NCBI RefSeq assembly: GCF_031583575.1
Contig: NZ_CP134146.1
Coordinates: 868,001-932,000 of the forward strand
Origin: Thalassotalea nanhaiensis
Lineage (GTDB): Bacteria > Pseudomonadota > Gammaproteobacteria > Enterobacterales > Alteromonadaceae
DNA: 64,000 bases
Direction: 5' to 3'
Below, piece after piece: positions 5,815 to 50,700 of the stretch. The position numbers and the translations under genes are program-made. Each line of letters starts with the position of its first letter. The first letter of the stretch is position 1. The notes under the pieces were generated by a model. The model was not told where the DNA came from, made no database searches, and saw nothing but the letters and a program-made list of their open reading frames with translations.

Positions 5815-6029
5815 GCAGGGATTTACAAACTTAATACCATCCTTGGCAATTCTAAGTTATTTCTTCCCTGAGATTTACAAACTTAATGCCATCCTTGGCA
5901 GTTTGCATTCCATCATCCGTGAAGTACAGAATTTAAGCCATCCTTGGCAATTCTAAGTTATTTCTTCCCTGAGATTTACAAACTTAATGCCATCCTTGGC
6001 AGTTTGCATTCCATCATCCGTGAAGTAAA
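5815..6029 (-). repeat. Terminator-adjacent repeat array 1 (downstream of mdh)
   Basis: On the minus strand the array begins at the T-tract of the mdh terminator with ACTTCACGGATGATGG. A unit of about 101 bp is present twice plus a degenerate end (for example GATTTAC starts at 5872 and 5973). Each unit has two hairpin modules: one with arms CAAACT/AGTTTG and one with AGAATT/AATTCT, both around GCCATCCTTGGC with an asymmetric bulge. It explains essentially all of the 351-bp gap 5727-6077 apart from the terminator. Confidence 0.85.
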
Positions 6030-6057
6030 AAAAACCGGTCAATTGACCGGTTTTTAA
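6026..6057 (-). terminator. Intrinsic terminator of mdh
   Basis: The palindrome ACCGGTCAATTGACCGGT is flanked by an A/T-run on both sides. In the mdh direction eight Ts run straight into the repeat array. Confidence 0.88.
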
Positions 6058-6077
6058 GATGCTTTATCAACTTAAAT

Positions 6078-7010
6078 TTAAGCGATAAAATCAACACCTT
6101 CTTGAATGTCAGCGTTTAACGTTGCTAACATTTCATTTTTTGCATTTTCTTCGTATGCACTTAACGCGCCGTAAGGTAAGTATTCTTCAACACCATTTTT
6201 ACCTAAACGTACAGGTTGAGCGAAATATGCAGCATCGCCAGTGTTACCTTCAACGTATGCGTAATCGATAACGTCTTCACCTTGTAAGCCTTTAACTAAA
6301 GACATACAAAAACGAGCAGCAGCAGCACCCATAGATAATGTAGCAGAACCGCCACCAGCTTTCGCATTTACTACTTCAGTACCCGCATTTTGGATACGTG
6401 GAGTTAATGCATCAATCTCTTCTTGAGAAAACTCAACACCTTCAACTTGTGAAAGAAGAGGTAAAATAGTTGTACCAGAGTGGCCACCAATTACTGGAAC
6501 TTTAACGTCTGATGTTGATAAGCCTTTAAGCTCAGCAATAAATGTTTCACTACGGATAACATCAAGAGTAGTTACACCAAATACGCGGTTAGCTTCGTAA
6601 GTACCTGCTTTTTTGAATACTTCAGCAACAATTGGCACAGTACCATTAACTGGGTTAGTAATAACGCCAACTAGTGCTTTAGGACAGTTAGCAACAATGC
6701 CTTCTGCTAAAGTTTTGATGATACCAGCGTTAACAGCAAATAAATCTGCACGGTCCATACCTGGCTTACGAGGCATGCCAGCAGGAATGATAACAATGTC
6801 ACAACCTGTTAATGCATCAGCCAATGAATCAGCGCCGTAACCTTTAACCGTCACATCGGTAGGGATGTGTGAAAGATCGACAGCAACACCTGGTACTACA
6901 GGTGCAACGTCATATAAAGATAACTCAGAACCTGCTGGTAATTGAGTTTTTAATAGTAATGATAATGCTTGACCGATACCACCGGCAGCACCTAAAACGG
7001 CAACTTTCAT
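6078..7010 (-). CDS. mdh: Malate dehydrogenase (NAD)
   Basis: Cytosolic enzyme of the citric acid cycle interconverting malate and oxaloacetate. The 310 residues have the E. coli-type N-terminus [14 protein letters not shown] (Rossmann glycine motif 7-13), the substrate arginines in MPRKPGMDR (R81, R87), D150 and R153, and the catalytic histidine in GGHSGT (H177). Divergent from argR, as commonly found in gammaproteobacteria. Its terminator abuts repeat array 1. Confidence 0.98.
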
Positions 7011-7128
7011 TGAATCTCTCCAAATAATATTTGTATAGTGAAGTAACTACCGTTCGTTTAGTTGAGTAATTACTTTATTTTTTAATGCCACAGAAGATAC
7101 CCAATTGCGCCTTAAATTACAAACTATT

Positions 7129-7158
7129 TTGTCATATCTGTACAAAGGCTGATATGAT
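7129..7158 (+). promoter_or_regulatory. Promoter of argR
   Basis: TTGTCA (7129-7134) and TATGAT (7153-7158) with an 18-bp spacer lie about 75 bp before the argR ATG. ArgR usually represses itself, but I see no convincing ARG-box pair here. A short palindrome CAAATAATATTTG (7021-7033) lies in the mdh leader. Confidence 0.6.
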
Positions 7159-7232
7159 ACTTTAGTTTAGATATTCTCTATGTGTAAGATAATCTTAACA
7201 AAGACCATTTTTTCAGAGTAAAAGACAAGAAT

Positions 7233-7703
7233 ATGAGCTCACAACAAAAACAAGAAGCATTAGTTAATGCATTTAAAGAACTGTTAAAACAAGAACAATT
7301 TGGCTCTCAAGGTGACATCGTTGACGCATTAAAAAGCGAAGGCTTTGATAATATTAGCCAATCAAAAGTATCACGTATGCTTAGTAAGTTTGGTGCGGTA
7401 AGAACACGTAACGCCAGACAAGAAATGGTTTATTGTTTGCCCGCTGAATTAGGTGTGCCGACTGCCAAAAGTCCTCTGAAGCAGCTTGTATTGGATATTG
7501 AAAGTAATGATGTAATGATCATTGTTCGTACCAGTCCTGGAGCTGCACAATTGATTGCACGTTTACTTGATTCATTGAGTAAGGCTGATGGCGTATTAGG
7601 TACCATAGCTGGTGATGATACTATATTTATCGCACCAACTGCTGTAGGTGATATTGAAGAAACGAAAGAGAAGCTTAATCTGTTGTTTCAAAAAATGTAT
7701 TAA
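7233..7703 (+). CDS. argR: Arginine repressor
   Basis: Hexameric arginine-dependent regulator of arginine metabolism genes and cofactor for Xer recombination in relatives. The 156 residues comprise a winged helix-turn-helix (about 1-70, with QSKVSRML at 43-50) and a C-terminal hexamerisation/arginine-binding domain with [14 protein letters not shown] and [12 protein letters not shown], whose paired aspartates contact arginine. Length matches the family. Divergent from mdh, with its own promoter and a terminator at 7741-7765. Confidence 0.97.
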
Positions 7704-7738
7704 TGCATAGAAACGAGAAGTTTCAGGTTTCTATAAAT

Positions 7739-7765
7739 AGAAAAAGGCGCATTGCGCCTTTTTTG
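7739..7765. terminator. Intrinsic terminator between argR and the DyP peroxidase gene
   Basis: GGCGC-ATT-GCGCC (7746-7758) with AAAAA before and TTTTTT after can serve both converging genes. No repeat follows. Confidence 0.85.
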
Positions 7766-7793
7766 TTATGTCGGATTCAGTGCACTAAACTTT

Positions 7794-8723
7794 TTAGTCT
7801 TCTTTAGCAATTTTCGTGATTAGATCTAACGATGGGGCAAAAAATGCAGCACCTGTTTCAGCCTGAGTGTATTTCAGCAAATGATCGAAGTTACCATGGC
7901 CGTCACCTTCAATCATACTTTTTAACTGTAGCTCAAAATTTACAGGTGTGTGGCAGTAAGCAACAAAAAACAACCCCTGAATTTTCATGTGACCATATGG
8001 CATACTTTGCCTAACAATTTCTAAAGAGTTACCTTCTTTATCTTTTAAGTTTGTACGCTTAATATGAGCAGTATGTGGCTTATCCTCAGAGGCATATTCG
8101 ATGTCATCGCGTTTGGTTCTACCGATAATGTCTTCTTGTTGTTTTTCTTCAAGTGTTTGCCATAAGCTCATATTGTGGCGATAACGCTGTATGTGCAGAT
8201 AACTACCTTTGCAAAATTCGCTTTGATCTTGTTCTTTAACTAAGGCAACTTCGCGTTTATGCATGCCTTTAGGGTTTTCACTACCATCGACAAAACCAGT
8301 CAAGTCTCTGCCGTCTAAATATCGAAAGCCTTTTACTTGCTCAACAAGCTCAACACCATCATTTAATAAATCACATACTTTGGTACTAACTACGTGATTT
8401 ACATCTGCCCGGTCGCTGCGGATCTCTATAAATAAGTCATAATTTGTTGCCGGTGCAAACCTGTCTTCAACTTGCATATGAGCAAAGGGCTTTAAGCCAT
8501 TCGGTCTTGCTTGTGGGTAATACTCATCCCAATAACTTGCACCAATAGCGATGACTGCATTTAAGTTTGATTCTGAAAATTGATCGGCGTAATCATCAAA
8601 AAGCTCAGGTAGGGCCGCGAGTGCTTTACGTATAAATTTGTTTTTATTATCTAATACATTAAACATTAAATAATAACTGTGTAAATTTGGCTCGGCACAA
8701 ATGCCAAATTGTTCTCTAGCCAT
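7794..8723 (-). CDS. DyP-type heme peroxidase, YfeX-like
   Basis: Cytosolic dye-decolorising-type peroxidase of 309 residues. The family signature GFVDG (143-147, catalytic D146), the proximal heme histidine in the segment HTAHIKR (H220) and the distal arginine in IVRQSMPYG (R238) are present. No Tat signal is seen, so it resembles the cytoplasmic YfeX class rather than EfeB. I start at ATG 8723 (MAREQFGIC): a GAG lies seven bases upstream, whereas the in-frame TTG at 8735 and ATG at 8729 are poorly placed. The physiological substrate of YfeX-type enzymes is debated. Confidence 0.9.
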   Translation of the reverse strand: MAREQFGICAEPNLHSYYLMFNVLDNKNKFIRKALAALPELFDDYADQFSESNLNAVIAIGASYWDEYYPQARPNGLKPFAHMQVEDRFAPATNYDLFIEIRSDRADVNHVVSTKVCDLLNDGVELVEQVKGFRYLDGRDLTGFVDGSENPKGMHKREVALVKEQDQSEFCKGSYLHIQRYRHNMSLWQTLEEKQQEDIIGRTKRDDIEYASEDKPHTAHIKRTNLKDKEGNSLEIVRQSMPYGHMKIQGLFFVAYCHTPVNFELQLKSMIEGDGHGNFDHLLKYTQAETGAAFFAPSLDLITKIAKED

Positions 8724-8835
8724 AAACATTCTCAAATCATAAATTTAATTTAAGTATATGAGTTTATTTATGTTTAACAAAGAAAAATATTGATAGTTTA
8801 GAAACTAGCAAGGATACACGAGAAGTGTCGTCGGT

Positions 8836-9648
8836 TTAACGTTGTGCAGGAACCGAAAATAATTTTTTATCATGCCAACGTAGCATAGTTAATTCTCCAC
8901 CCCAAACACAGCCAGTATCAAGAGCGTATACATTAGAGTTACCTACTTCACCATTTAAACTTGCCCAATGACCGAATACCCATTGTGTTTTGTCTATAGA
9001 TTTAGATAAATCAAACCAGGGAGAAAGGTTTGGATCTTGGTTCAATGATGGAGAGTCTTTATGAGTAAACTCTAATGAACCGTCAGAAAAGCAAAAACGC
9101 ATGCGAGTTAAGGCATTTACACTGAATCTAAACTGTTCTTCTTCAGTGTTAGCATCCTTCCAACTGTTTGGCATACTGCCATACATCAAATTAAGCCAAT
9201 GCTCACGTTGATTACCTGATATGCGCTGTTGAACAAAGTTTGATTGTGCTAACGCATCCTCAGGCTGCCATTGTGGCGATAAGCCAGCATGACTCATATA
9301 GGCGTTTTCATTGGGCAGTTGTTCTACAAGAGGGTACTGTGCAAGCCAGTTCATTAACTCATCTATATCAGGTGAACGAAGTAAGTCATCTAAACGGTCA
9401 TTTTTTTTAACTTTTTTAATGCCTGCATGAACAGCAAGTAGGTGTAAGTCATGATTACCTAATACAATTTTTGCACTATTGCCTAACGACTTTATCAGTC
9501 TTAGTGTTGCTAGCGAGTCTGGACCTCGAGCGACGAGATCACCAGTAAACCAAATTTGATCGGTTTGACGATCAAAATTAATCAACTTCATAAGCTGGCA
9601 TAATTCAGCATGACATCCTTGAATATCGCCTACCAGGTAGATATTCAA
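8836..9648 (-). CDS. apaH: Bis(5'-nucleosyl)-tetraphosphatase, symmetrical
   Basis: Hydrolyses Ap4A to two ADP and also acts on Np4-capped RNA in relatives. The 270-residue metallophosphatase shows GDIQGCH (7-13), GDLVARGP (36-43) and GNHDLH (64-69), the metal-binding blocks of the PPP family, plus the C-terminal VFGHWASLNG. It is the last gene of the lptD-surA-pdxA-rsmA-apaG-apaH run, two bases after the apaG stop. Confidence 0.96.
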   Translation of the reverse strand: MNIYLVGDIQGCHAELCQLMKLINFDRQTDQIWFTGDLVARGPDSLATLRLIKSLGNSAKIVLGNHDLHLLAVHAGIKKVKKNDRLDDLLRSPDIDELMNWLAQYPLVEQLPNENAYMSHAGLSPQWQPEDALAQSNFVQQRISGNQREHWLNLMYGSMPNSWKDANTEEEQFRFSVNALTRMRFCFSDGSLEFTHKDSPSLNQDPNLSPWFDLSKSIDKTQWVFGHWASLNGEVGNSNVYALDTGCVWGGELTMLRWHDKKLFSVPAQR

Positions 9649-9650
9649 AG

Positions 9651-10043
9651 TTAGTTAACTATATTAGGAATGGCTAGGCCGAAAACAGGGATGTTGATTT
9701 TATGCTTGTTACCCTGCAAATCTTTCATAATATAAAATCCTTCCATAGTGCCTAAAGGAGTTTTTATAATTGAACCACTGGAGTAACGATAGCGTTGACC
9801 GCTTTGTAAAATTGGCTGTTGACCTACAACACCATCACCTTCAACAGAGACTTTATTACCATCAGCATCAGTAATAAGCCAGCTACGAGAAATTAGCTGT
9901 AGGGTTTTATCACTATTGTTTTCTATGGTGATGGTATAGCTAAAAACAAACCTATCTTGATATTGATCGGATTGCTCTTCAATAAAGTCGACATGTGTCG
10001 AAACTTTAACTAATTGTCCCGGTGTTGACTGTTCTGCTTCCAT
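9651..10043 (-). CDS. apaG: ApaG domain protein
   Basis: Small beta-sandwich (fibronectin type III-like) protein of 130 residues. It has the family blocks FSYTITIENNSDKTLQLISRS, WLITDADG, VVGQQPIL and the C-terminal GTMEGFYIM. The role of ApaG in bacteria is not settled; mutants in enterobacteria affect cobalt and magnesium phenotypes. It is located between rsmA and apaH in the conserved operon. Confidence 0.95.
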   Translation of the reverse strand: MEAEQSTPGQLVKVSTHVDFIEEQSDQYQDRFVFSYTITIENNSDKTLQLISRSWLITDADGNKVSVEGDGVVGQQPILQSGQRYRYSSGSIIKTPLGTMEGFYIMKDLQGNKHKINIPVFGLAIPNIVN

Positions 10044-10065
10044 CGCAAATCTCCAGTTATTTTTA

Positions 10066-10875
10066 TTACAACTCTGGTGGATTATCCGTTAAGTAATTCG
10101 CAACAGTAATATAGTCGTGCATACTCAAATTTTCAGGTCTTAAACTGGCTTTTATACCTAACGCTTCTAACTGCTCTGCACTGATCAGCTTCTTAAAACT
10201 GTTGCGAATGGTTTTACGTCGCATGCTAAATGCTTCTCTGGTTACACGCTCTAACCATTTTACATCTTTAGCTGGATACATAATTTCTTTATGCGGTATT
10301 AACCGTACAATTGCACTGTCTACTTTTGGCGGTGGCTGAAATGCTTCAGGGCCAATTTCCATTACCGGTATTACCTGGCAATAGTATTGACACATAATCG
10401 ACAAGCGACCATAAGTTTTTGAATTGGGCTCTGCAGCCATTCTATTCACAACTTCTTTTTGCAGCATAAAATGCATATCTTTAACTTTATCTTTAAAAGT
10501 CAGAAGGTGAAATATTAATGGGGTAGAAATATTATAAGGTAAATTACCAAAGATTCTTAAGGCTTGCTCATCTGCAAGAGTAGCAAAATCGAACTTTAAT
10601 GCATCTGTCTCATGAATGGTTAAATTCTTTGCGATAAAAGGGTGATGACGTAACCTATGCGCAAGATCTCTATCAAGTTCAACGACAGATATATCACCAG
10701 CTCTTTCAATCACCGGCTCAGTCAACGCGCCTAAACCTGGGCCTATTTCAACCAGGTTTTCGCCAGAACATGGATTAATTGCATCAACAATACGGCTAAT
10801 TACTGCATCGTCATGTAAGAAGTTTTGGCCAAAGCGCTTTTTGGCTTGGTGACCTAAATGGCTTTTATTACTCAT
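10066..10875 (-). CDS. rsmA: 16S rRNA (adenine1518-N6/adenine1519-N6)-dimethyltransferase
   Basis: RsmA (KsgA) dimethylates two adjacent adenines in the 3' helix of 16S rRNA late in 30S assembly. The 269 residues begin with [13 protein letters not shown], followed by the SAM-binding [10 protein letters not shown] (44-52), the acidic VVELD (64-68) and the catalytic NLPYNIS (111-117). The start overlaps the pdxA stop by four bases, indicating translational coupling. Confidence 0.97.
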
Positions 10876-11855
10876 TGCTGATTTTGTACCAAGTTAATTG
10901 CATTATTCATTGCTGCTCTAAAACTTCCTGTATCGGCGTCCAATGAGCCAGCAAGTTCGATAGCAGTACCGTGATCTACAGAAGTCCTTATAAAGGGTAA
11001 ACCTAAGGTAATATTTACAGAGGAGCCAAATCCTTTGTATTTAAGCACTGGCAAGCCTTGATCATGATACATAGCCAATACTGCATCAGCATCGTCTAGG
11101 TATTTTTGTTGAAAGATGGTATCTGCGGCTAACGGGCCAACTAAATTCATTCCTTCTTCACGTAACGATTCAAGGGCTGGGCTAATCACTTCAATTTCTT
11201 CTTTACCTAAGTGACCATCTTCGCCGGCATGTGGGTTTAAACCACAAACATAAATTTTTGGTTCTTTTATACCAAATTTTTCTTTTAGATCTTTATGAAG
11301 TATACGTGTGATTTTCTGAATTCGCTCGAAAGTTATCGCTTTTGAGACATACTCCAGAGGGATATGTGTTGTCATTAATGACACTCTTAATCCTTCCGTT
11401 GCAAGCATCATAACAACATCAATGCAATTTGCTTGTTGAGCAAAATATTCAGTATGACCACTAAAAGGAATACCAGCTTGGTTAATCAATCCTTTATGAA
11501 CTGGGCCGGTAACTATCGCTTTAAACTCTCCTGACATATTGCCTTCACAGGCAAGCCTTAGAGTTTCAACCACGTAAGCACCATTATTGGCATCTAGCAC
11601 GCCAGGTTGAGCCGGTTGAGCCAGCCTTACTGGTAGCACTTCTATGGTACCAGCCTTATGCGCCTTTGGTGAGGCGGCAGAGTCATAAATATTAATAGCT
11701 AATGGCAAGTTCAACAGTTTTGCTCGTTGCTCCAGTAGCTCTGGATCAGCAATCGCAACAAGCTGCACTGGCCAGTTTTCTTGGGCCAGTTGCACTAAAA
11801 TGTCTGGACCAACGCCCGCTGGCTCTCCAGGAGTAATGGCAATTTTATTTACCAT
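10872..11855 (-). CDS. pdxA: 4-hydroxythreonine-4-phosphate dehydrogenase
   Basis: PdxA oxidises 4-phosphohydroxythreonine in the DXP-dependent pathway of pyridoxal phosphate synthesis. The protein of 327 residues has [11 protein letters not shown], the metal-binding [11 protein letters not shown] and SGHTEYFA, and the C-terminal [15 protein letters not shown] with [10 protein letters not shown]. An in-frame GTG at 11858 overlaps the surA stop, but ATG 11855 lies better behind the AAGG of the end of surA, so I use ATG. Confidence 0.96.
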
Positions 11856-11857
11856 CA

Positions 11858-13168
11858 CTATTCACCTTCTTCGTCAAAAATCTCAATGTAAGCTTCATCG
11901 CGAGTCTCTTTCATCCAGCGGATAACTTCAACACCAAACTTTCGATTGAATAGTAGGTTGTAGGCACGATTTTCGTTATTTTGATCTGTTGCATCTAACG
12001 TTCTTCGGCCAGTTAGTTGCACTAAATGCCAGCCAAAAGAGCTACGAAATGGTTTATGATATTCATCTATTTCTAACGTCGCTAATGCATTCTTGAAAGC
12101 TGGGTCGTAACTATTTGGATCTGTCCAACCTAAATCTCCACCACGAGAAGCTGATGGACCTTCTGAGTGTTCTTTAGCTAAGGTATCAAAATCTGCTTCA
12201 CCAGCTTTTATCTGTGCTAAGAAATCTATTAGTATTTTCTCTGCTTTTTCTTCAGATAGAATGATTGATGGTTCAATTAAAATATGACGTGATTTAACTT
12301 CACTTACTTCAACAGTTTCTTTACCACGAATATCTAATATTTTAATAATGTTAAAGCCTAAACCGGTACGTATCGGCCCAAAGACTTCACCTTTATTTTG
12401 ACCGTCAACCAATTCTGCAAATAAGGTTGGCATTTCATTAATACCGCGCCAGCCAATATCACCACCTTCTAATGCACTAGGGGCACCCGAAGAGGCAATC
12501 GCTATTTTCTTAAAATCTGAGCCGTTATTTAATAAATCAATAACTTTGTCTGCTCGAGATTTTGCGTCAACCAAATCATCTTGAGTTGGTTCATCTGGAA
12601 AGCTGATCAGTATATGGCCGATATTATATTCAACATCAGCGTTTTTTTGTTGTTTCATTAAATCTACAAGGTTTGATATTTCTTGTGGGCTAATGGCAAC
12701 ACGACGACGTACGTTGGCTCTTCTAACTTCGTTAGTGATCATTTCTGTGCGAATGCCTTCACGATAGCTTTCATAGTTGATGCCGTCAGCGACTAATTTT
12801 TGCCTAAACTGTTCGGTCGTCATACCGCCATTATCGTTGGCGATTGATGCAATAGCTGTGTCTAACTGTGCATCACCAATTTGTACGCCCATACGTTCGC
12901 CCATTTGAATTAATAAACTATCGTTTATTAATTTTTCCATCGCTTGGGTACGAAGAGCCGCATCAGAGGGTAAACTTTGTTTTTCGGCGAGAGCTTGTTT
13001 TTTTACATTGTTTACTAGATCGTTTATTTCAGATTCAAGTACGACACCTGAATTTACAACAGCTACTACTCTATCCAGTTCTAATTCTTTTGCATTAACA
13101 ACAGATGTTGTAATAGCGCTGCTTACTATGCCTGAAATGATAAAGGCAATTTTGATTATTGTTTTCAT
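11858..13168 (-). CDS. surA: Periplasmic peptidyl-prolyl isomerase/chaperone SurA
   Basis: Main periplasmic chaperone delivering unfolded beta-barrel proteins to the Bam complex. The 436 residues carry a signal peptide (1-26, [21 protein letters not shown]), an N-terminal chaperone domain starting [18 protein letters not shown], and two parvulin domains (about 175-275 and 285-385) with NIGHILISF and RSRHILI-like starts and GGDIGW and GGDLGW loops. Its gene follows lptD, whose product is a SurA-dependent barrel, so the pair is functionally linked. Confidence 0.96.
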
Positions 13169-13267
13169 GGAATAAAATCTACGGTTATTTACTTCGAATT
13201 TGTTAAAATTATTAGAATGTTAACTTCTTAAACTTTCTTGAATATTAATTATTAGCCAAACTATGGC

Positions 13268-16051: not shown

Positions 16052-16100
16052 AGTATATTGTAATTAATTCTAGTTTATTCACCTCAAATGTGGAGTGTTT

Positions 16101-21139: not shown

Positions 21140-21294
21140 GGAACTTAGTGCCATCCATGGCAAGTAGGCATTCCTTCTTCCTTGAAGTGAGCCGACTTTG
21201 ATGCCATCCATGGCAAGTAGGCATTCCTTCTTCCTTGAAGTGAGCCGACTTTGATGCCATCCATGGCAAGTAGGCATTCCTTCTTCCTTGAAGT
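21140..21294 (-). repeat. Terminator-adjacent repeat array 2 (downstream of tolC)
   Basis: Three tandem copies with a 53-bp period: the core GCCATCCATGGC occurs at 21150, 21203 and 21256. Read from the tolC terminator each unit is ACTTCAAGGAAGAAGGAATG, then a hairpin with arms GCCTACTT/AAGTCGGC around GCCATGGATGGC and an ATCA bulge. An apparent 71-codon ORF on the minus strand here is just the tandem repeat. Confidence 0.88.
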
Positions 21295-21321
21295 AAAAAG
21301 GCGACCATTTGGTCGCCTTTA
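21294..21321 (-). terminator. Intrinsic terminator of tolC
   Basis: GGCGACC (21300-21306) pairs with GGTCGCC (21311-21317) around ATTT. In the tolC direction a TTTTT tract runs directly into ACTTCAAGG of array 2. It could also end hldE transcription from the other side after crossing the repeats. Confidence 0.88.
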
Positions 21322-28854: not shown

Positions 28855-29379
28855 ATGAAAACATTTTTTGCACTACTCGTTGCTTTTGTCGTTTCCGGCT
28901 GTTCATCTGTTGGTGATACAAGGTATGCAATGGCGAACAATCATATGAATCAAATTAGTAATATTGAAGAGATTAGTCCTGGAGCTCTAACTGAAATTAA
29001 TGAAGCGCCTGGTTTTGCGGTATTTAGTACTGCAGAGGTAAATTTGCTGGTTGTCTCTACCGGAACAGGCCATGGCGCTGTTTATAATAATGAAACCGGT
29101 GAAAGAACATATATGGACGTATTTGAGAGTGGTGTAGGTGTAGGAATTGGTGGTAAAGATGTGAATACGATTTTGGTATTTAACACTATGGAGTCGCTAG
29201 AAAAATTTACTGAAGAGGGCTGGATTTTTGATAATGAGCTTGATGCAAGCGGTAATGGTTCTGTTGTAAATGGTGAACAAATTGGCGATATTACTTTGTA
29301 TCAATCGACTAAAACCGGTGTAAATCTACACGCCATGTTAAAAGGTACTCGCTTCTCCAAAAGTGAAGATTTGAATTAA
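28855..29379 (+). CDS. SYLF/YSC84-domain lipoprotein, copy 3
   Basis: A 174-residue probable lipoprotein with lipobox FVVSGC. It parallels copy 1 throughout: EISPGALTEINEAPGFAVFSTAEVNLLVVSTGTGHGAVYNNETGERTYMDVFESGVGVGIGGKD and a C-terminal TLYQSTKTGVNLHAMLKGTRFS shown here only as family landmarks. A separate upstream AT-rich stretch (28725-28854) probably carries its own promoter. Its terminator at 29398-29432 abuts repeat array 3. Confidence 0.8.
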   Translation: MKTFFALLVAFVVSGCSSVGDTRYAMANNHMNQISNIEEISPGALTEINEAPGFAVFSTAEVNLLVVSTGTGHGAVYNNETGERTYMDVFESGVGVGIGGKDVNTILVFNTMESLEKFTEEGWIFDNELDASGNGSVVNGEQIGDITLYQSTKTGVNLHAMLKGTRFSKSEDLN

Positions 29380-29397: not shown

Positions 29398-29432
29398 AAG
29401 CCGGAGATATTTAAAATGTCTCCGGCTTTTTT
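29398..29432 (+). terminator. Intrinsic terminator of SYLF copy 3
   Basis: AAGCCGGAGA (29398-29407) pairs with TCTCCGGCTT (29419-29428), followed by a T run. Array 3 begins at the next base. Confidence 0.9.
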
Positions 29433-29775
29433 AATTCATGGATGAATTAACTTAGAATTACCATGGAGGGTATAAATTCTGTTACATCAGGGAGGATGGA
29501 ATGTCGACTTGCCATGGATGGCAATAAAGTCGACTCAATTCATGGAAGAAGGAATGCAAATCGCCATGGACCGCTCTATCACATCCTCGGCAATTGCTCC
29601 CTGCATTGCTCTAATATACAACATCCATATTGAAAATGTGATCACGGCATATACAACCTCCATGTTGAAAACGGCAATAAAGTCGACTCTATTCATGGAT
29701 GAATTAACTTAGAATTACCATGGAGGGTATAAATTCTGTTACTCATGGAAGAAGTAATGTAAATCGCCATGGCTG
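29433..29775 (+). repeat. Terminator-adjacent repeat array 3, with nested segment
   Basis: Composite array filling the gap between SYLF copy 3 and the VOC gene. Two near-identical modules (about 29433-29482 and 29692-29741) contain the hairpin with arms AGAATT/AATTCT. One hairpin with perfect arms GTCGACTT/AAGTCGAC around GCCATGGATGGC and an AATA bulge lies near 29503-29534. A nested segment spans 29564-29674. A 67-codon ORF at 29509-29712 is repeat-derived and not a gene. Confidence 0.85.
29564..29674 (+). repeat. Nested ~110-bp segment shared with array 5
   Basis: From CCATGGACCGC to GTTGAAAACGGC this block matches 34721-34830 at most positions (ATCACATCCTCGG, ATTGCTCCCTGCATT, TAATATACAAC, GGCATATACAAC). 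It splits a hairpin core: here the left arm (GCAAATC) and right arm (AAAGTCGAC) no longer pair, suggesting recombination between units. Confidence 0.75.
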
Positions 29776-29828
29776 CAAATGGATTTATGTGTACAATATC
29801 ATTAAGTACATACATTTATAGGCTGAAA

Positions 29829-32809: not shown

Positions 32810-32840
32810 AATAACCCTGGAATTTATTCCGGGGTTATTT
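32810..32840 (+). terminator. Intrinsic terminator of parC
   Basis: AATAACCCTGGAA (32810-32822) pairs with TTCCGGGGTTATT (32827-32839), with one wobble pair and a TTTA loop. Array 4 starts at 32841 with ACTTCAGGGATGACC. Confidence 0.85.
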
Positions 32841-33090
32841 ACTTCAGGGATGACCATTTTGATCACATCCTTGTGAAAATGGCATATGTTACTCCCTGTA
32901 AAAAAAGGAATGGCAGCTAAACATGGATGGCATGAAGTTGATTCACTTCAGGGATGACCATTTTGATCACATCCTTGTGAAAATGGCATATATTACTCCC
33001 TGTAAAAAAAGGAATACCAGCTAAACATGGACCGCTCATTCACATCCATGTGATCACGGCATTCATTACATCCTGTAAATCATGTTATGA
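32841..33090 (+). repeat. Terminator-adjacent repeat array 4 (downstream of parC)
   Basis: Tandem unit with a 104-bp period: ACTTCAGGGATGACC starts at 32841 and 32945. Each unit has a hairpin CCATTTT/AAAATGG with inner CAC/GTG, a CTCCCTGTAAAAAAAGGAAT stretch, and a second core AAACATGGATGG (first unit) or AAACATGGACCG (second unit). The last part (33028-33075) carries a shorter nested insertion like that of arrays 3 and 5. Confidence 0.85.
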
Positions 33091-34439: not shown

Positions 34440-34601
34440 ATGCAATGGATATCTAATATTTTTCAACCACAGATATTAGCGTTATTAATCCCTGTTATTG
34501 CAATCATTGCAATCTTTGGTAATAAAGCGTTAAAAGCTCACCATGAACATTTAGAGCGTATGGAAAAAATACGCAATGGTATTGACCCTGATGCAGAATG
34601 A
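34440..34601 (+). CDS. Small membrane protein of unknown function
   Basis: A 53-residue frame beginning MQWISNIFQPQI, 26 bp after rraB and directly before the terminator at 34617. It has one strongly hydrophobic helix (about 10-27, QILALLIPVIAIIAIFG) followed by a charged cytoplasmic-type tail (KAHHEHLERMEKIRNGIDPD). AAGTGAGG lies a few bases upstream, giving a fair ribosome site. The architecture recalls PspB-like small proteins, but I see no real similarity. I consider it a real gene because of its place in the operon, its ribosome site and its clean membrane topology. Confidence 0.7.
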   Translation: MQWISNIFQPQILALLIPVIAIIAIFGNKALKAHHEHLERMEKIRNGIDPDAE

Positions 34602-34616
34602 TTAACCTTTACCCAT

Positions 34617-34643
34617 AAAAAAAGCGCTATATAGCGCTTTTTT
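34617..34643 (+). terminator. Intrinsic terminator of the plsC-rraB operon
   Basis: AAAGCGCT (34621-34628) pairs with AGCGCTTT (34633-34640) around ATAT, ending in six Ts. Array 5 begins directly after it. Confidence 0.88.
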
Positions 34644-34897
34644 GATTCAGGGAATAATCAATGCAAATCACCATGGACGGTATTAGATTTGTAGATTCAG
34701 GGAATAATCAATGCAAATCACCATGGACCACTCCATCACATCCTCGGTAATTGCTCCCTGCATTACCCTAATATACAACGTCCATGTTGAAATGTGAGCG
34801 TGGCATATACAACTTCCACGTTGAAAACGGTATTAGATTTTTAAATTCAAGGATGAATTAACTTAGAATTACCATGGATGGATTAAATTCTGGTAGA
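34644..34897 (+). repeat. Terminator-adjacent repeat array 5, with nested segment
   Basis: Begins GATTCAGGGAATAATC at the terminator and repeats this start near 34694 and, diverged, near 34845. Hairpins include arms CAAATC/GATTTG around ACC-ATGGAC-GGT with an ATTA bulge (34655-34691) and AGAATT/AATTCT (34865-34895). A nested segment lies at 34721-34830. It fills the 313-bp gap before the DUF481 gene, apart from the terminator and a small hairpin GTGTT/AACAC at about 34901-34914. Confidence 0.85.
34721..34830 (+). repeat. Nested ~110-bp segment shared with array 3
   Basis: From CCATGGACCAC to GTTGAAAACGGT, matching 29564-29674. Here it sits inside a hairpin whose flanking arms (AAATC and GATTT) still pair, so this looks like the original insertion context. 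Confidence 0.75.
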
Positions 34898-34914
34898 TTC
34901 TGTGTTAACCAACA

Positions 34915-39497: not shown

Positions 39498-39498
39498 G

Positions 39499-41004: not shown

Positions 41005-41275
41005 GAACACTCCTATTTAATACTTACTTTATGTTTAATTACTTGTTTTTGGCTTATTTTGTTACTTTCAACTTGCTAAAATCTGCCTTTAGCAGATAGA
41101 CTAAATAAGGCCTTTCGTTTTTATTTTGGCTGTTTAAGCTATTATTATAGCTAGATTCAGCGCTGTTGCATTTTGATTACTCATTGTAGTCAAAATTTAT
41201 TATATATAAAAACGGTAAGTTTACTTAAAAATTGGCCAGTTGTCAGAAAAAAACTAAGTTTTTTGGATTAAATCA

Positions 41276-43449: not shown

Positions 43450-43451
43450 AA

Positions 43452-43480
43452 AATAAAGGTCTGCTTAGCAGACCTTTTTT
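43452..43480. terminator. Intrinsic terminator between lptG and the RDD gene
   Basis: AAAGGTCTGC (43455-43464) pairs with GCAGACCTTT (43468-43477) around TTA, followed by TTTTTT minus-A tail. Serves both converging genes. No repeat attached. Confidence 0.88.
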
Positions 43481-43512
43481 GTTAATCACAAGTTTAGTTA
43501 CCAAACTTGCTA

Positions 43513-44007: not shown

Positions 44008-44137
44008 AAGTACTTCTAAATTTTCCTAAACCTGTAATGGCGCAAGTGTAGCATTTGAGTAAAAAAAGACAAAGCAGTTCCAAAAATCTAACGAATTAGA
44101 TACATTATGATTATTCGTCAATCTTCTAAAGGAACAA

Positions 44138-44605
44138 ATGTTGCTTTCATTTTTAGAACTAAAAGTACCACCAGTTATAGTTGTATTTATTGCGGCGTTG
44201 GCTATGTACTTTTCACCAAACCCAATCGTTTATTTTTCGTTAGATCCTATGCTCGCCTATTACACCACTCGTGTTTTATTTGTAGTGTCGGCATTGGTGA
44301 TTGTATTAGGGATATATTGTTTTAGAAAAGCGAACACTACTGTTGATCCGGTGAACCCAAAAAATGCGTCACAGTTGGTTAATTTTGGCATTTATAAATA
44401 TACCCGTAATCCAATGTACTTGGGATTTGCCATAATGCTGTTAGCTATGGCGGTTAAAATGCAAAGCTTAGTTGCCTTTCTTTGGCTTGCTGTTTTTATT
44501 TGGTATATGAGTCGGTTTCAAATTAAACCGGAAGAACGTGCATTAACAAAAGTATTTGGCGAAGCCTACAGCGAATATTGCCAGCAAGTAAGGCGCTGGC
44601 TTTAA
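44138..44605 (+). CDS. Isoprenylcysteine carboxyl methyltransferase-family membrane protein
   Basis: A 155-residue integral membrane protein with four hydrophobic segments. GIYKYTRNPMYLGFAIMLLAMAV and PEERALTKVFGEAYSEYCQQVRRWL form the conserved SAM-binding C-terminal motif of the ICMT/PEMT-like superfamily (RNPMYLG and the EE). Many bacterial members are uncharacterised; the substrate cannot be predicted. AAAGGA sits six bases upstream of the ATG. An overlapping ORF at 44107 in another frame is a shadow. Confidence 0.83.
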   Translation: MLLSFLELKVPPVIVVFIAALAMYFSPNPIVYFSLDPMLAYYTTRVLFVVSALVIVLGIYCFRKANTTVDPVNPKNASQLVNFGIYKYTRNPMYLGFAIMLLAMAVKMQSLVAFLWLAVFIWYMSRFQIKPEERALTKVFGEAYSEYCQQVRRWL

Positions 44606-44631
44606 GCTTACGAGAAGGTAGAAGCTCTTAC

Positions 44632-45975
44632 TCAGGTATTAGATACGACACTTTCTACTTTGCCATCATTTAGTTGTGTGGTGATGGTGTCACCTTCTTT
44701 TACGTCATCAACACTTTTCATAATTCTACCTTGTTCATCTCTGGTAATTGAATAGCCTCTGGCTATTGTTGCTAATGGGCTGACAATATTTAAATTATGG
44801 GCAAGTTTTGCAAGTTGCAACTGCTTGTTATCTTTAAGCTGTAACTGTGCTCTTGTTAAACGACTATCTAGATCGTTTAGCTTAACTTTAGCTAATTGAA
44901 TTTGTTGAGTTGGATTTTTGCTTGCTAATCGTTGTTGTAATAACAGAGATTGATTTTTTCTTTGCGTTTGTTGTTCTATCATTTTTTGGTTTAAACGCAT
45001 GGCTAAATCATCAGCGTGTTGTTGCTGGTTTTGCAATTGTTTAACCGGGCTGGCAAGTGCCAACTGATGATTAAAGTACTGATGATTAGCTTTGTGGTCT
45101 TGCACTGCTTGTTTAATTAAATGCGTTAAGCGCTGACGATAGTGGCTAATTTGGGTGAGCAATTGTTGATTGTCGCTTGATACTAACTCTGCCGCAGCAG
45201 ATGGAGTTGGTGCACGCATATCTGCAACGTAATCAGACAAGCTGGTGTCAACTTCATGGCCAACCGCACTTATTACCGGGATGTCGCAATCAAATATTGC
45301 TCTCACCACTGGCTCTTCATTAAACGCCCATAAATCTTCAAGTGAGCCACCACCTCTGCCCACAATTAATACATCACATTCATCACGTTCGTTGGCATTA
45401 TAAATAGCGTCGCTTATTTGCTCTGCGGCTAAATCACCTTGTACCAGAGTAGGGTAAATCACAACTTCTATGCTTGGGTTTCTACGTTTTAATACGGTAA
45501 GAATGTCTTTAACCGCGGCACCAGTGCTTGAGGTAACGATTCCAACGGTTTTTACAAAATCAGGAATAGGCTGCTTATACCTTTGGTCAAATAAGCCTTC
45601 ACCTTGAAGTTGATTTTTTAATAATTCAAATTTTTGACGGAGTAAGCCTTCTCCTGCGTCTTCCATTTGTTCAATGATTAATTGAAAGTCGCCACGAGGT
45701 TCATAAAGCGAGACTTTTGCTTTTACTAATACTTGTTGACCGTTTTGTGGCTTAATACGGGTATAACGATTATTGCCTTTAAACATGGCGCAACGAACTT
45801 GCGCTTTGCTGTCTTTTAACGATAAATACCAATGACCAGAGCTTGCGGCGATGAAATTAGATATTTCACCACATAACCATAGGGTTCTTAGTTCACTTTC
45901 TAAGATATAACGTACTTTTTTGGTAAGCTCACTTACCTGTAATATATGCTGTTTGCTCTGATCTAAATGGTTCAT
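44632..45975 (-). CDS. xseA: Exodeoxyribonuclease VII large subunit
   Basis: Catalytic subunit of the single-strand-specific exonuclease VII. The 447 residues have an N-terminal OB fold ([25 protein letters not shown]), the catalytic core with [17 protein letters not shown] and [28 protein letters not shown], a long coiled-coil arm (about 275-395, rich in Q, L and K) and a small C-terminal beta part ([15 protein letters not shown]). Divergent from guaB, as in E. coli. Confidence 0.96.
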
Positions 45976-46029
45976 AAGGTGCTTTTGTGATTATTTTTCA
46001 AATAAATACGGTTTTTTACAAAATTTAAG

Positions 46030-46058
46030 TTTACCTAAGCGGTCAAAGTGGTTAAAAT
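46030..46058 (+). promoter_or_regulatory. Sigma-70 promoter of guaB
   Basis: TTTACC (46030-46035) and TAAAAT (46053-46058) with a 17-bp spacer. Transcription from about 46065 gives a leader of some 55 nt with a small hairpin GGAGT-ACG-ACTCC (46087-46099). I see no PurR palindrome. Confidence 0.65.
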
Positions 46059-46120
46059 CCATTCGCAATTATTACTCCACTCTATTGGAGTACGACTCCC
46101 ACATAAGCGAGAATGTTGCA

Positions 46121-47590
46121 ATGCTAAGAATAGCCCAAGAAGCCCTAACCTTTGATGATGTACTACTAGTACCTGCCCACTCAACGGTTCTACCACATAC
46201 TGCAAGCCTTAAAACTAAACTTACCAGTAAAATTGAATTAAACGTGCCTATTTTATCTGCGTCTATGGACACAGTAACCGAAGCCCGTTTAGCCATTGCC
46301 TTAGCGCAAGAAGGTGGTTTAGGTTTTATCCATAAAAACATGACGATAGCGGAACAAGCTGCCAATGTCCGTCAAGTTAAAAAGTATGAAAGTGGTATTG
46401 TGACAGATCCTGTTACAGTTAGTCCAGATATTAGCATTCGCGAAGTATTTTACCTTGCCGATGAATTAAAGTTTTCAGGTTTCCCTGTAGTAGACGCTGA
46501 AAATAACTTAGTTGGTATCATTACCTCACGTGATTTACGTTTTGAAACTGACTTAGAGAAAAAAGTGTCAGACCTAATGACACCTAAAGATAAGTTAATC
46601 ACTGTGAAAGCTAATGCAGAACGTGAAGAAATTCTTAACAAAATGCACGCCAACCGCATTGAAAAAATCTTAGTTGTTAACGATGATTTTGAAATCAGCG
46701 GTATGATCACTGCAAAAGATTACCAAAAAGCAGAAAGCAAACCGAATGCCTGTAAAGATGAATTAGGTCGTTTACGTGTTGGTGCTGCAGTTGGTGTTGG
46801 TGCTGGAACTGATGAACGTATCACAGCGTTAGTTGCTGCCGGTGTTGATATTTTACTTATCGATACTTCACACGGACATTCACAAGGCGTGTTAGATAGA
46901 GTTAAAGAAACTCGTCAAGCGTTCCCAGATTTACAAATTGTTGCCGGTAATGTTGCCACTGCTGAAGGTGCAAAAGCACTGGCAGATGCAGGTGTTAATG
47001 CGGTTAAAGTGGGTATTGGCCCAGGTTCAATTTGTACAACTCGTATTGTTACCGGTTGTGGTGTACCACAAATTACAGCTATCTCTGAAGCGGTTAAAGG
47101 CCTAGCGGGTACTGACATTCCAGTAATTGCCGATGGTGGTATTCGTTTCTCAGGTGATATCGCTAAAGCATTAGTTGCTGGCGCACACTGTGTAATGGTT
47201 GGTTCAATGCTAGCTGGTACTGAAGAAGCACCAGGTGAAGTTGAACTTTATCAAGGGCGTTATTACAAATCTTACCGCGGCATGGGCTCTCTAGGCGCAA
47301 TGAACCAAAAAGAAGGTTCATCTGATCGTTACTTCCAAAAGTCTGACGAAGCCGACAAGTTGGTACCTGAAGGTATTGAAGGTCGTGTAGCGTATAAAGG
47401 ACCGATGGCTGCAATCATTCATCAACAAATTGGTGGTATTCGCAGTGCAATGGGCTTAACCGGCTCTGCAGATATTGAAGAAATGCGTACTAAACCACAG
47501 TTTGTCAAAATTACCGCAGCTGGTATGGGCGAGTCGCACGTGCATGATGTAACCATCACAAAAGAAGCGCCTAATTATAGGTTGGGATGA
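46121..47590 (+). CDS. guaB: IMP dehydrogenase
   Basis: Oxidises IMP to XMP, the first committed step of GTP synthesis. The 489-residue protein starts [25 protein letters not shown] as in E. coli, has a CBS-pair insertion (about 95-205; [20 protein letters not shown]), the catalytic cysteine loop [11 protein letters not shown] and the flap region KGSSDRYF-like EGSSDRYFQ. The frame is open from 46085, but those 12 codons lie in the leader. Followed by guaA after a gap with a long hairpin. Confidence 0.97.
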
Positions 47591-47600
47591 TTTTTCTATA

Positions 47601-47698
47601 GGAGTGGTTATTTGTCCCAATTTCGACTTTTAGTGTACTCATTTGCAAGAGCAAACTCCGTGCACTAAAAGCCGAACTAGAAACAAATCCCTCACTCC
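47601..47698. other. Long imperfect stem-loop between guaB and guaA
   Basis: Successive paired blocks nest around one axis: GGAGTG/CACTCC (47601, 47693), ATTTGT/ACAAAT (47610, 47683), TTCG/CGAA (47622, 47673), CTTTTAGTG/CACTAAAAG (47627, 47663) and TTTGC/GCAAA (47642, 47651) with loop AAGA. No T-tract follows. It could be an mRNA processing or attenuation structure or a small palindromic element. Confidence 0.65.
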
Positions 47699-47788
47699 GG
47701 GCATATTGAATAGTTTAAAAATTAAAACGTTAATAAATATTTATAGAACTGCCAAGAGCGGTTCTTTACAAACAAAGAGAAGAGACTA

Positions 47789-49366
47789 ATGAGTCAAGAT
47801 ATTCATGATCATCGAATTCTAATTTTAGATTTTGGTTCTCAGTACACGCAGCTTATTGCTCGTCGTGTTCGTGAAATTGGTGTTTACTGTGAGCTATGGG
47901 CTTGGGATGTTACAGAAGAGCAAATTAAAGGCTTCAACCCTACAGGTATTATCCTTGCAGGTGGTCCAGAGTCTGTAACAGAGGACGCCTCGCCGCGTGC
48001 ACCTGAGTATGTATTTAATGCTGGCGTACCAGTACTTGGTATTTGTTACGGTATGCAAACTATGGCTGAGCAGCTTGGCGGTGGAGTAGAAAGCTCTGAG
48101 CATAAAGAATTTGGATACGCTGCTGTTGAAGTTATCGGTAAGTCTGCATTATTTAACGCTATTGAAGATTCAATAAGTTCTAATGGTAATGCTTTACTCG
48201 ATGTTTGGATGAGCCATGGTGACAAAGTTTCAGAAATTCCTGCAGGCTTTACCACTATTGCACAAACACCAAGCTGTAAATACGCAGCTATGGCAAACGA
48301 AGACAAGCAATTTTACGGTGTTCAATTTCACCCAGAAGTAACTCATACAAAGCAAGGTATGCGTATTTTAGAGCACTTTGTTGTTGATATTTGTCGCTGT
48401 GAAAAACTTTGGACTTCAGCAACCATCATTGAAGATGCAATTGCTAAAATGAAAGCCCAAGTTGGTGACGATGAAGTCGTACTGGGTTTATCTGGTGGTG
48501 TTGATTCATCAGTAGTTGCAATGCTTTTACATCGAGCTATTGGCGACAAGCTTACCTGTGTATTTGTTGATAACGGCTTACTTCGTTTAAACGAAGGCCA
48601 ACAAGTAATGGATATGTTTGGCGATCACTTCGGCCTGAATATAATTCATGTTGATGCTGAAAACCGTTTCTTAGATCGCATGTCGGGTGTTAGTGACCCA
48701 GAAGCAAAACGTAAAATCATTGGTAATGTGTTTGTTGAAATCTTTGACGAAGAAGCTGGTAAATTAAAGAACGCCAAATGGTTAGCTCAAGGTACTATTT
48801 ACCCTGACGTAATCGAATCTGCGGCCTCAGCTACCGGTAAAGCCCACGTGATTAAGTCACACCATAACGTTGGTGGACTTCCTGAAGATATGGAGCTTGG
48901 CTTAGTTGAACCGTTACGTGAACTTTTTAAAGATGAAGTACGTAAAATAGGTTTAGAGTTAGGCTTACCTTACGACATGCTTTATCGTCACCCGTTCCCT
49001 GGACCAGGTTTAGGTGTTCGTATTTTAGGTGAAGTGAAAAAAGAATATGCTGACTTATTACGTCGTGCAGATGCTATTTTCATTGAAGAGTTACACAAGC
49101 ATGACTTGTATAAAAAAGTAAGCCAGGCGTTTACGGTATTTTTACCGGTACGTTCAGTTGGCGTTATGGGTGATGCTCGTAAATATGATTGGGTTGTATC
49201 ATTACGTTGTGTTGAAACAATTGATTTCATGACTGCTCGTTGGTCACACTTACCGTACGATTTCTTAGGTTTAGTGTCTAACCGTATCATTAACGAAATT
49301 GATGGTATTTCTCGTGTAGTTTACGATATTTCTGGTAAACCACCAGCAACTATCGAGTGGGAATAA
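47789..49366 (+). CDS. guaA: GMP synthase (glutamine-hydrolysing)
   Basis: Converts XMP to GMP with glutamine as nitrogen donor. The 525 residues have a class I glutamine amidotransferase domain (about 1-205) with the nucleophile in GICYGMQ and the histidine/glutamate pair in QFHPEVTH, an ATP pyrophosphatase domain with the P-loop GLSGGVDSS (about 232-240), and the C-terminal dimerisation domain ending PPATIEWE. Follows guaB by 198 bp; AAGAGAAGAG precedes the ATG. Confidence 0.98.
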
Positions 49367-49393
49367 TAATCCACTAAGTTAATATCTACATAT

Positions 49394-49432
49394 ATAAAGG
49401 CCTAGTAATTTTTATTACTAGGCCTTTATTTT
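49394..49432. terminator. Intrinsic terminator between guaA and the DUF gene
   Basis: AAAGGCCTAGTAAT (49396-49409) pairs with ATTACTAGGCCTTT (49414-49427) around TTTT, with ATTTTTA following. Strong 14-bp stem serving both converging genes, with no repeat attached. Confidence 0.85.
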
Positions 49433-49449
49433 TAGAAGCGAGAAACTTT

Positions 49450-49893
49450 TTATTTTAAATGCTGTTCAGCATAGTGCTGCATTGCTTTACTAAAGTGCTC
49501 TGCAAAACCTTCGCAGAACTGTTCAAAGTTTGCTTTTTGGTCGGCATCATTGGCAATGCTATTGGCCATAGCATTAAACTTTTCTTTACTAATAAGTACT
49601 GATTTTTTCTGCAAGGTTGATAATGCAAACGTAGTGTAAGCAAGATAGTGCTGAACTACCTTTTGCATTTCATCAGAGTCAATAGCAAACGATGTGGCTT
49701 GGGCAAGTTCAGCATTAAAAGCTTCGGCTTTTTCTTTAAGCGCCATAGTGTCTTCTATGCTTAAATTAGCTAATTGCTCCAGGCGTTGATCAACTTTATC
49801 ATCGCCAACACGTTCGCGCGCTATTTGCTCTTGGCGCTCAAATTCTGCACTTTCAAATTCGCCGTTATTTTCATCTTTGTTGATATCACTCAT
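49450..49893 (-). CDS. Hypothetical acidic helical protein
   Basis: I do not recognise this 147-residue protein. It has no signal peptide or membrane segment. The first 45 residues are highly charged and probably disordered (DINKDENNGEFESAEFERQEQ); the rest (about 50-147) is predicted helical, with HYLAYTTFALSTLQKK and FEQFCEGFAEHFSKAMQHY. The spacing of aromatics faintly recalls TipAS-like globin folds, but this is weak. The protein is intact, single, and convergent with guaA. Confidence 0.6.
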   Translation of the reverse strand: MSDINKDENNGEFESAEFERQEQIARERVGDDKVDQRLEQLANLSIEDTMALKEKAEAFNAELAQATSFAIDSDEMQKVVQHYLAYTTFALSTLQKKSVLISKEKFNAMANSIANDADQKANFEQFCEGFAEHFSKAMQHYAEQHLK

Positions 49894-50001
49894 GGATATT
49901 TACCTCGGTATTAATTTTAATGGCGCAATGTTGCCATAAAGCCTTAACTATAGCTATAGTAGTCCTCTAAGCAATATATTGTTATTTTAATAGGACACAC
50001 C

Positions 50002-50574
50002 ATGATTTTATATGGTTCAACAACTTCTCCTTTCGTTCGTCGTATTCGTATGTTTACCCACAGTATTCCGGTTGATTTTGTGGTGATGGATATTTTCTCA
50101 GCTGAAGATCGTAAAGTTTTAATCGCTAAAAATCCAACCTTAAAAGTACCTTTTTTAGTTGATGATGATACTAATGTCTTTGATTCAAGAGTGATACATC
50201 GTTATATAACGGATAAATTTGAATTAACTCCAATTACCTGGCAACAAGAAAATACTTTAACGTTAATCGATTCTATTAGTGACTCACTTGTGTCTATGTT
50301 TTTACTTAGCCGTAGTGAAATAGATACCAGTGAAGATAAAATGTTTTTTAATTTACAACGCCAACGAAGTGATAAGGTGTTTGCTCAGCTTGAAAAGCAA
50401 TGTAAAGCAGGGGACTTTAACGAATGGGATTACCCAAGTATTTGTTTATATAGTTTGATCGATTGGGCACACTTCAGACCACTCGTTGACTTTGCGCCTT
50501 ATCCTGCTTTATTAGAGTATTATAAAAACAATAGTAATCGAGAAGAAGTGAAGGAAACTGATCCAAGGGAATAA
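50002..50574 (+). CDS. Glutathione S-transferase family protein
   Basis: A 190-residue protein whose N-terminal thioredoxin fold (1-75) reads MILYGSTTSPFVRRIRMFTH, then NPTLKVPFLV with the cis-proline that binds glutathione, and DSRVIHRYI. The C-terminal part is helical (about 85-175). S8-P10 replaces the CxxC of glutaredoxins, so it belongs with GST/SspA-like proteins. Substrate is unknown. Its 3' side is repeat array 6. Confidence 0.8.
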   Translation: MILYGSTTSPFVRRIRMFTHSIPVDFVVMDIFSAEDRKVLIAKNPTLKVPFLVDDDTNVFDSRVIHRYITDKFELTPITWQQENTLTLIDSISDSLVSMFLLSRSEIDTSEDKMFFNLQRQRSDKVFAQLEKQCKAGDFNEWDYPSICLYSLIDWAHFRPLVDFAPYPALLEYYKNNSNREEVKETDPRE

Positions 50575-50578
50575 CTTA

Positions 50579-50674
50579 AAGCTGTTTTCAACATGGCAGT
50601 TTGCATTACTTCGTCCCTGAAGTTACAAACTTAAAGCCATCCATGGCAGTTTGCATTCCATCATCCCTGAAGTA
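50579..50674 (-). repeat. Terminator-adjacent repeat array 6 (downstream of gltS)
   Basis: Read from the gltS terminator: ACTTCAGGGATGATGGAATG, then the hairpin CAAACT-GCCATGGATGGC-TTTA-AGTTTG (core 50636-50647), then a second start ACTTCAGGGACGAAG and a truncated second unit ending in CCATGTTGAAAAC, the right end of the nested segment seen in arrays 3 and 5. Confidence 0.85.
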
Positions 50675-50700
50675 AAAAGCGCCCTTAGGCGCTTTTTTTA
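50674..50700 (-). terminator. Intrinsic terminator of gltS
   Basis: AAAAAGCGCC (50674-50683) pairs with GGCGCTTTTT (50688-50697) around CTTA. In the gltS direction the T-tract runs into ACTTCAGGG of array 6. Confidence 0.88.

Follow-up and report, generated by a model that had tools for sequence, protein, structure and literature searches.

Arrays of structured repeats that begin at the T-tracts of intrinsic terminators in Thalassotalea nanhaiensis

The arrays in the window and in the genome

The window analysed here is a stretch of 64,000 nucleotides from Thalassotalea nanhaiensis (positions 868001-932000 of the one contig that makes up its 4.31-Mb genome, G000 below), and it holds six arrays of short hairpin repeats, each of which begins at the T-tract of the intrinsic terminator of a gene. 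The arrays are genuine, and the repeats are more widely spread than the first-pass annotation of this DNA had it; the six junctions between terminator and array that it reported were all borne out when the loci were read. Three are on the minus strand. The terminator of mdh (6027-6055, stem CCGGTCAATTGACCGG followed by T8) passes into an array at 5820-6026 with two alternating subtypes, a 101-bp duplication and eight GGA cores 24-27 nt apart, that of tolC (21295-21320, a stem and T5) into a 53-bp unit present in 2.8 copies with six GGA cores (21142-21294), and that of gltS (50674-50693, a stem and T5) into one full unit and one that resembles a deletion derivative of a unit in a sister genome, G005 (50571-50673). 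The other three are on the plus strand. Behind the SYLF-like gene 28855-29379 the terminator (29399-29432, a stem and T6) is followed at 29433-29785 by AATTC-type units with an inverted inner module. The parC terminator (32810-32840) leads to two copies of a 104-bp composite unit with inverted modules (32841-33080); this array does start at the T-tract, which reads TTATTT and is not the pure T run first described. The array at 34644-34900 begins with GATTCAGGGAATAATC, a first unit of the same type as in the sister genome G010, and has an AATTC-type unit later. It does lie behind a terminator (34617-34643, T6), and the gene before it is a small open reading frame (ORF) at 34440-34604, downstream of rraB, and not the plsC-rraB operon itself. 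The count of six stands too, with a seventh site overlooked, where the T8 of the terminator behind gene 52335-53612 is followed by a single hairpin, CTCAGGGAAGAGC (53658-53690, plus strand). Domain matches agree with the identities of mdh, tolC and parC, and the SYLF-like protein has a weak Ysc84 match, below the curated cut-off.

That the arrays keep to one direction is true of the first, T-adjacent hairpin and fails for long units (about 29.57-29.68, 32.84-33.08 and 34.73-34.83 kb), which hold inverted modules. The terminator stems differ from site to site, and the mdh stem recurs in G010 with another loop, followed by T8 and no array, so that the stem belongs to the gene and is not part of the repeat, just as had been proposed.

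The window holds 14 copies of the motif TTCANGGANGA, where 0.27 would be expected and 100 shuffles gave 3 at most, and the whole genome has it at 153 places against 43 for the reversed pattern. Preceded by a T-tract, as TTTTT-N-CTTCANGGANGA (pattern TTTTTNCTTCANGGANGA), it is found at 48 places and its reversal at none, the T5 at these 48 sites being there by construction. The other genomes of the genus (G001-G014; 15 genomes with G000) gave 40 places in G005, 20 in G010, 6 in G011, 5 in G006, 1 in G003 and none in nine others. Judged by eye, most of the 48 contexts have a GC-rich stem before the T-tract; in three (1042894, 1071082 and 4283462) an AT-rich stretch takes its place, the end of another repeat, and where this repeat was read it too sits behind a terminator.

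A sample chosen independently of the pattern was formed by 20 evenly spaced stretches of 20 kb (400 kb), in which arrays were found by profile at E<=0.01, plus one by eye. All 11 arrays (10 by profile, one by eye) have an intrinsic terminator in front and begin at its T-tract, on the strand of the gene, and with the six of the window this makes 17 of 17. Loci outside the even stretches were picked by the T5 pattern, and T-tract adjacency at these therefore proves nothing. The core CANGGANG has 140 noncoding copies in 644 kb, which form 31 same-strand clusters and 28 singles, against 15-54 noncoding copies and 0-6 clusters for each of seven distinct control motifs in the same DNA (CANCCANG, for instance, has 54 copies and 6 clusters). 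Eight control motifs were run, and a reverse-complement pair among them counts as one. The clusters, stems and subtypes were sorted by eye. Twenty-two clusters begin at a T-tract with a stem (with TTATTT in the case of parC), one (1367636) has a stray core ahead of a proper start at a terminator T-tract, and six are inner or inverted portions of arrays that begin at such a tract; counted as independent clusters, 23 of 25 begin at the T-tract of a terminator. Four of the single cores also lie behind a terminator T-tract and three are inverted modules after TTTT. Random noncoding sites, taken with an orientation, lie 1-5 nt behind four or more T with a frequency of 0.054. Neither sample refutes the expectation, put forward with the first annotation, that most copies should stand next to terminators and in one orientation to them.

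The direction is seen from the genes and from the terminators. An ORF end on the same strand lies at most 260 nt away in 24 of the 28 listed array starts, and an ORF end on the opposite strand alone in none. A same-strand GGA hairpin stands at -2 to 1 nt in 17 of 151 strictly predicted terminators, with none on the opposite strand within 40 nt. The motif is found within 5 nt downstream of 26 out of 522 lenient terminator-like sites, and thus about one such site in 20 carries it.

Some further repeats were noticed on the same contig. At about 520500-521000 there is a tandem repeat of about 211 bp in three copies, each with a terminator and an array together. A second repeat type (GGCCANGGANGGCC ... 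GCAATTTTTTG; 1042948, 1071029, L218) stands behind a terminator T-tract and ends in an AT-rich hairpin and T-run of its own, and a CTTCA array attached to that T-run makes up a chain of T-tract-anchored elements. Between 1823846 and 1830932 (L219 at 846, 4673, 7592 and 7932) a GCCACCT..AGGTGGC hairpin followed by TTCAGGGAGGAAAACTATGAAAAG is present in four near-identical copies, and this repeat resembles gene leaders or cassette ends.

Anatomy of the repeat unit

A unit is about 50 nt long and consists of a first hairpin (H1) with the loop ANGGAN and a closing C-G pair, a short linker, and a second hairpin (H2), whose stem has two steps and whose loop is that of H1. The spacing is regular, and of 203 neighbouring cores that are 23-29 nt apart, 201 fall at 24-28. 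The predicted stems are shown to covary. Among 177 T-adjacent hairpins stem position -1 pairs in 169 and position -3 in 162, where the shuffles reach at most 124 and 101, and where two cores are neighbours, the second, in most cases H2 and in some H1, has a Watson-Crick first stem pair in 194 of 203, against a maximum of 83, with all four types present. Only the stems count as evidence here, because the selection itself specified letters of the loop. When the loop was left out of the selection, GGA loops were found in 19 of 75 hairpins 0-3 nt after T-tracts, against 1-4 of 58-68 at shifted positions. On the GGA strand, G-T pairs exceed A-C mismatches by 43 to 14 at the two inner stem pairs.

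Orthologous sites and other genera

The orthologous gene ends were read within the genus for mdh and parC (15 genomes each) and gltS (10 of 12 with a match). The parC terminator of G010 is present with the array absent, as at mdh, and a terminator of G005 at 3737953 is empty in G010. Elsewhere the site is filled differently: mdh of G005 has an array of another subtype, gltS of G005 has a related unit, and the gene at the seventh site (ending before 921658 of the contig) is followed by three different units in G000, G005 and G010, that of G010 lacking a terminator. Since some of the same terminators are empty in the sister species or carry another subtype there, the arrays have been gained at terminators that already existed. 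The comparison of orthologous loci that had been suggested, carried out in part, did accordingly turn up both empty sites and other subtypes, and together with the T-adjacency and the fixed direction these back the original proposal that either insertion is targeted to T-tracts or a function immediately beyond the ends of transcripts is under selection.

Two sites bear on where new units may be added. At 932781, G000 has an AATTC-type unit between the T-tract and an ACATC-type unit, and in G010 the ACATC-type unit is directly at the T-tract; at gltS, G000 looks to have an extra unit between the T-tract and the unit that G005 has at the T-tract. A third case, 368301, failed on re-reading and was dropped. 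Of 10 unselected arrays, 8 have a T-proximal unit that matches the profile better than their last unit does (p 0.11 on H2), and when all loci are scored on H2, which played no part in the choice of loci, the T-proximal unit is the better one in 35 of 44 untied pairs; polarity scored on loci chosen by an intact first hairpin is inflated. This polarity fits addition at the terminator end, and would also fit decay of the distal units alone.

Outside the closest relatives, the pattern TTTTTN{1,5}CANGGATG was compared with a control, with T-runs longer than five counted more than once on one strand, and gave 24 against 1 in Bowmanella pacifica and 34 against 4 in Thalassomonas sp. RHCl1 (G322 and G323), and within the genus 23 against 0 in G002, 12 against 2 in G013 and 4 against 4 in G001. 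All 22 sites read in Bowmanella pacifica and RHCl1 (20 stretches) follow a stem and T6-7, and these are 22 of 42 distinct listed places, picked for a recurring first stem. H1 in these two is mostly GTCC..GGAC and ATAC..GTAT, and the bodies do not resemble those of G000. With other stems, this anatomy thus occurs in two named genera of marine gammaproteobacteria at the least; we do not claim three, because RHCl1 may be kin to Thalassotalea. In a set of 295 genomes of the order, from which the other genomes of the genus were left out, the exact TTCA-type pattern was matched in 23 including G000, the others at one or two places. When 25 such loci were viewed (two being the same place), several were coding or just ahead of start codons, and eight in other genomes (L310-L312, L315, L319, L320, L327 and L328) do follow a stem-loop, and there may be lone true copies in the order. 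Among 80 named mdh neighbourhoods, some of them incomplete, an array at the mdh terminator was found in one, from Bowmanella (L133). In this Bowmanella pacifica locus the array is long (2700-4300), with sense and inverted modules that include GCAGAAAA..TGCTCCTGC..TTTTCTGC hairpins. Tandem arrays of the H1-H2 type (GTGCAGGGATGCAC..., CTGCATGGATGCAG...) were also seen with the CsrB model in G012 (L451) and G009 (L452), at about 1430-1880, and these are not obviously behind a terminator.

Origin of the arrays and comparison with known systems

We consider the arrays to be a family of small structured repeats like the repetitive extragenic palindromes (REPs), with the terminator T-tract as tag, inserted in one orientation at existing terminators and grown at the terminator end, and would give this a probability of roughly 0.6. 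A unit would insert where the T-tract of an intrinsic terminator already in place ends on its 3' side, so that H1 would abut the tract, and later units would join at the same junction, so that the array would grow at its terminator end while tandem duplication and decay shape the distal part. The inserting enzyme would recognise the stem-loop and T-tract of the terminator as well as the hairpins of the element, perhaps as single-stranded DNA in the manner of group IIC introns. Insertion as a physical process and recognition of structure are thus what we infer, as is any role in the Csr system, and addition of units at the terminator end would have support in the polarity and the two sites above, if a thin one. 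To our knowledge few DNA elements have a transcription terminator as their address, group IIC introns being one of them.

Several observations weigh against such an origin. Cluster 1099253 has a stop codon at its start and no stem, cluster 2626665 has T5 and a weak stem, and 21 of the 28 single cores are not T-adjacent, some of these being the second core of an array and others probably due to chance. In H1, position -2 pairs in 136 of 177 against a shuffle maximum of 122, which is weak, and position -4 in 33 of 177 against a shuffle mean of 38, which is no pairing; at the third stem pair A-C exceeds G-T by 27 to 14. Folding of single units, predicted for five, improves little on shuffled sequence (z -0.6 to -3.0), and H1 forms in two of the five and H2 in four. 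The unit at 4364571 of G010 lies at TTTTC, its terminator lost, and the unit at 1110180 is near-identical in G000 and G005 among the segments listed; because some units are shared and near-identical between these two, not all units are young and the turnover is uneven. The sister-species comparison gave neither a target-site duplication nor an exact pair of before and after, because the intergenic DNA is too diverged. Searches for Y1_Tnp and for reverse transcriptase found no mobilising gene.

A link to REPs and bacterial interspersed mosaic elements (BIMEs) moved by the REP-associated tyrosine transposase (RAYT, a Y1 transposase) had been offered as an analogy, and is very unlikely. The likeness is real, with short covarying palindromes clustered behind genes and frequent G-T pairs (PMC3733652; this and the other works cited were consulted in part, and what we take from them holds for those parts). 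In the 11 array starts of the profile sample, however, the foot of the hairpin is the T-tract and not GTAG or CGTC. The sole Y1_Tnp match in G000 is weak and reads QIQ at what we take to be the position of HxH, and the terminator to which the nearby array belongs is on the opposite strand, so the partial search for a RAYT gene flanked by the repeat went against the idea. Y1 genes are present in G004, G007, G009 and G014, all with no exact T5-CTTCA pattern (other subtypes were not sought there), whereas G013 has T-adjacent copies and no Y1_Tnp match at E<=0.001. With the tag and HxH absent and Y1 genes not tracking the arrays, the link was rejected. Even less probable is retro-insertion, in which a group IIC-like reverse transcriptase would put the RNA of the element behind terminator stem-loops. 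Insertion 3' of a stem-loop is what the arrays show, the DNA stem-loop recognised by group IIC introns lies 5' of the site where they insert (PMC10190682), and the array-rich G005 and G010 have RVT_1 matches; PF00078 is nevertheless unmatched in 11 of the 15 genomes, including the array-rich G000, where we therefore rejected reverse transcriptase as the present motor, and the 13 Rfam matches obtained for the window at E<=5 include no intron family. It is just as hard to believe that the repeats insert at any place and are retained only after terminators, where they would be harmless. The arrays are noncoding and terminators would be safe places, but other noncoding sites should then let them survive as well, and the adjacency at the strictly predicted terminators is too close and one-directional for this.

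The alternative that deserves more attention, although we find it doubtful, is that the arrays are Csr-type RNA sites, where read-through RNA with pairs of C-ANGGAN-G hairpins binds and titrates CsrA; selection would maintain place and direction, since CsrA would be titrated only by sense RNA from immediately beyond the terminator. The loop and the two-site spacing fit CsrA, whose consensus from systematic evolution of ligands by exponential enrichment is RUACARGGAUGU, in loops mostly of six nt on mostly at most four base pairs, and which bridges sites 10-63 nt apart, best above 18 (PMC7652899). The excess of G-T over A-C on the sense strand points the same way at the two inner pairs, and the opposite way at the third. 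A csrA gene was found in 6 of 6 genomes searched, and in E. coli the RrA/B/F RNAs, which come from read-through between two ribosomal RNA (rRNA) terminators, bind CsrA (PMC8144298), so that a Csr role is plausible. On the other hand, a Csr function by itself leaves the adjacency to the T-tract within a few nt unexplained, inverted modules yield anti-sense motifs, and G001 has two csrA matches and yet no excess of the T-adjacent pattern. A terminator at the end of the array is found in 6 of 121 arrays and in 4 of 119 control windows, and a small RNA gene with its own terminator was rejected on this ground. Multiple GGA-loop hairpins, as in the CsrB family, are present in the arrays (the loop letters being part of the selection); RF00018 had no match in G000 at E<=1, with 53 of 83 candidates scored. 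A known RNA family was likewise rejected on the 13 Rfam matches of the window, and the TwoAYGGAY motif is not among them. A GGA-rich, CsrB-like region was seen just upstream of a Y1_Tnp-like gene with a degenerate HxH in G000 (about 2995040-2995350; L220, about 1540-1850) and G006 (L461), with an RF00018 match in G006 (E 3e-4, below the cut-off).

Insertion at the T-tract of existing terminators, which we prefer, could also be combined with such a function. Tentatively, a structure-guided system that reads the terminator stem together with the T-tract may plant Csr-type hairpin pairs one way behind terminators, add units at the terminator end and make the read-through RNA titrate CsrA, with the sequence drifting and the loop and position kept in at least two named genera; we would not put it higher than a possibility. 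A family that keeps hairpin shape and position while its sequence drifts, in at least two named genera, would point to an insertion machinery not yet recognised, or to a function of RNA past terminators that has gone unnoticed.

No matching published description came up in the open-access literature, searched at listing level, and neither the strand-biased SE elements (PMC10782965) nor the TAACTGA repeats of Beggiatoaceae (PMC4679880) match the arrays, as far as the parts consulted go. The CsrB, CsrC and RsmZ RNAs have many regularly spaced GGA-loop hairpins like the arrays, which differ in lying at dozens of loci behind the terminators of other genes and in lacking a terminator of their own. 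The RrA/B/F RNAs share a GGA-bearing RNA behind a first terminator, made by read-through, but come from three near-identical rRNA-operon genes, each then followed by a second terminator, and do not form a repeat family (PMC8144298). Group IIC introns share the DNA stem-loop as target and insertion 3' of it (PMC10190682), whereas with the arrays no intron is seen, G000 has no reverse transcriptase match and the unit is about 50 nt. The GTAG/CGTC REPs and BIMEs are like the arrays in their short covarying hairpins, their clusters behind genes, their patchiness between species and their G-T pairs, and the CGTC REPs, like the arrays, are described there without a dedicated transposase (PMC3733652). 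What sets the arrays apart is that the tag is the T-tract of the gene's own terminator, that the direction follows the gene and that the common part is a loop and not a tetranucleotide. The arrays do not show the defining traits of RAYT-linked REPs, group IIC introns or CsrB RNAs, and are nearest to REPs by anatomy; we class them among the short interspersed palindromic repeats, as a new variant whose address and direction the parts of the literature compared do not record for such repeats.

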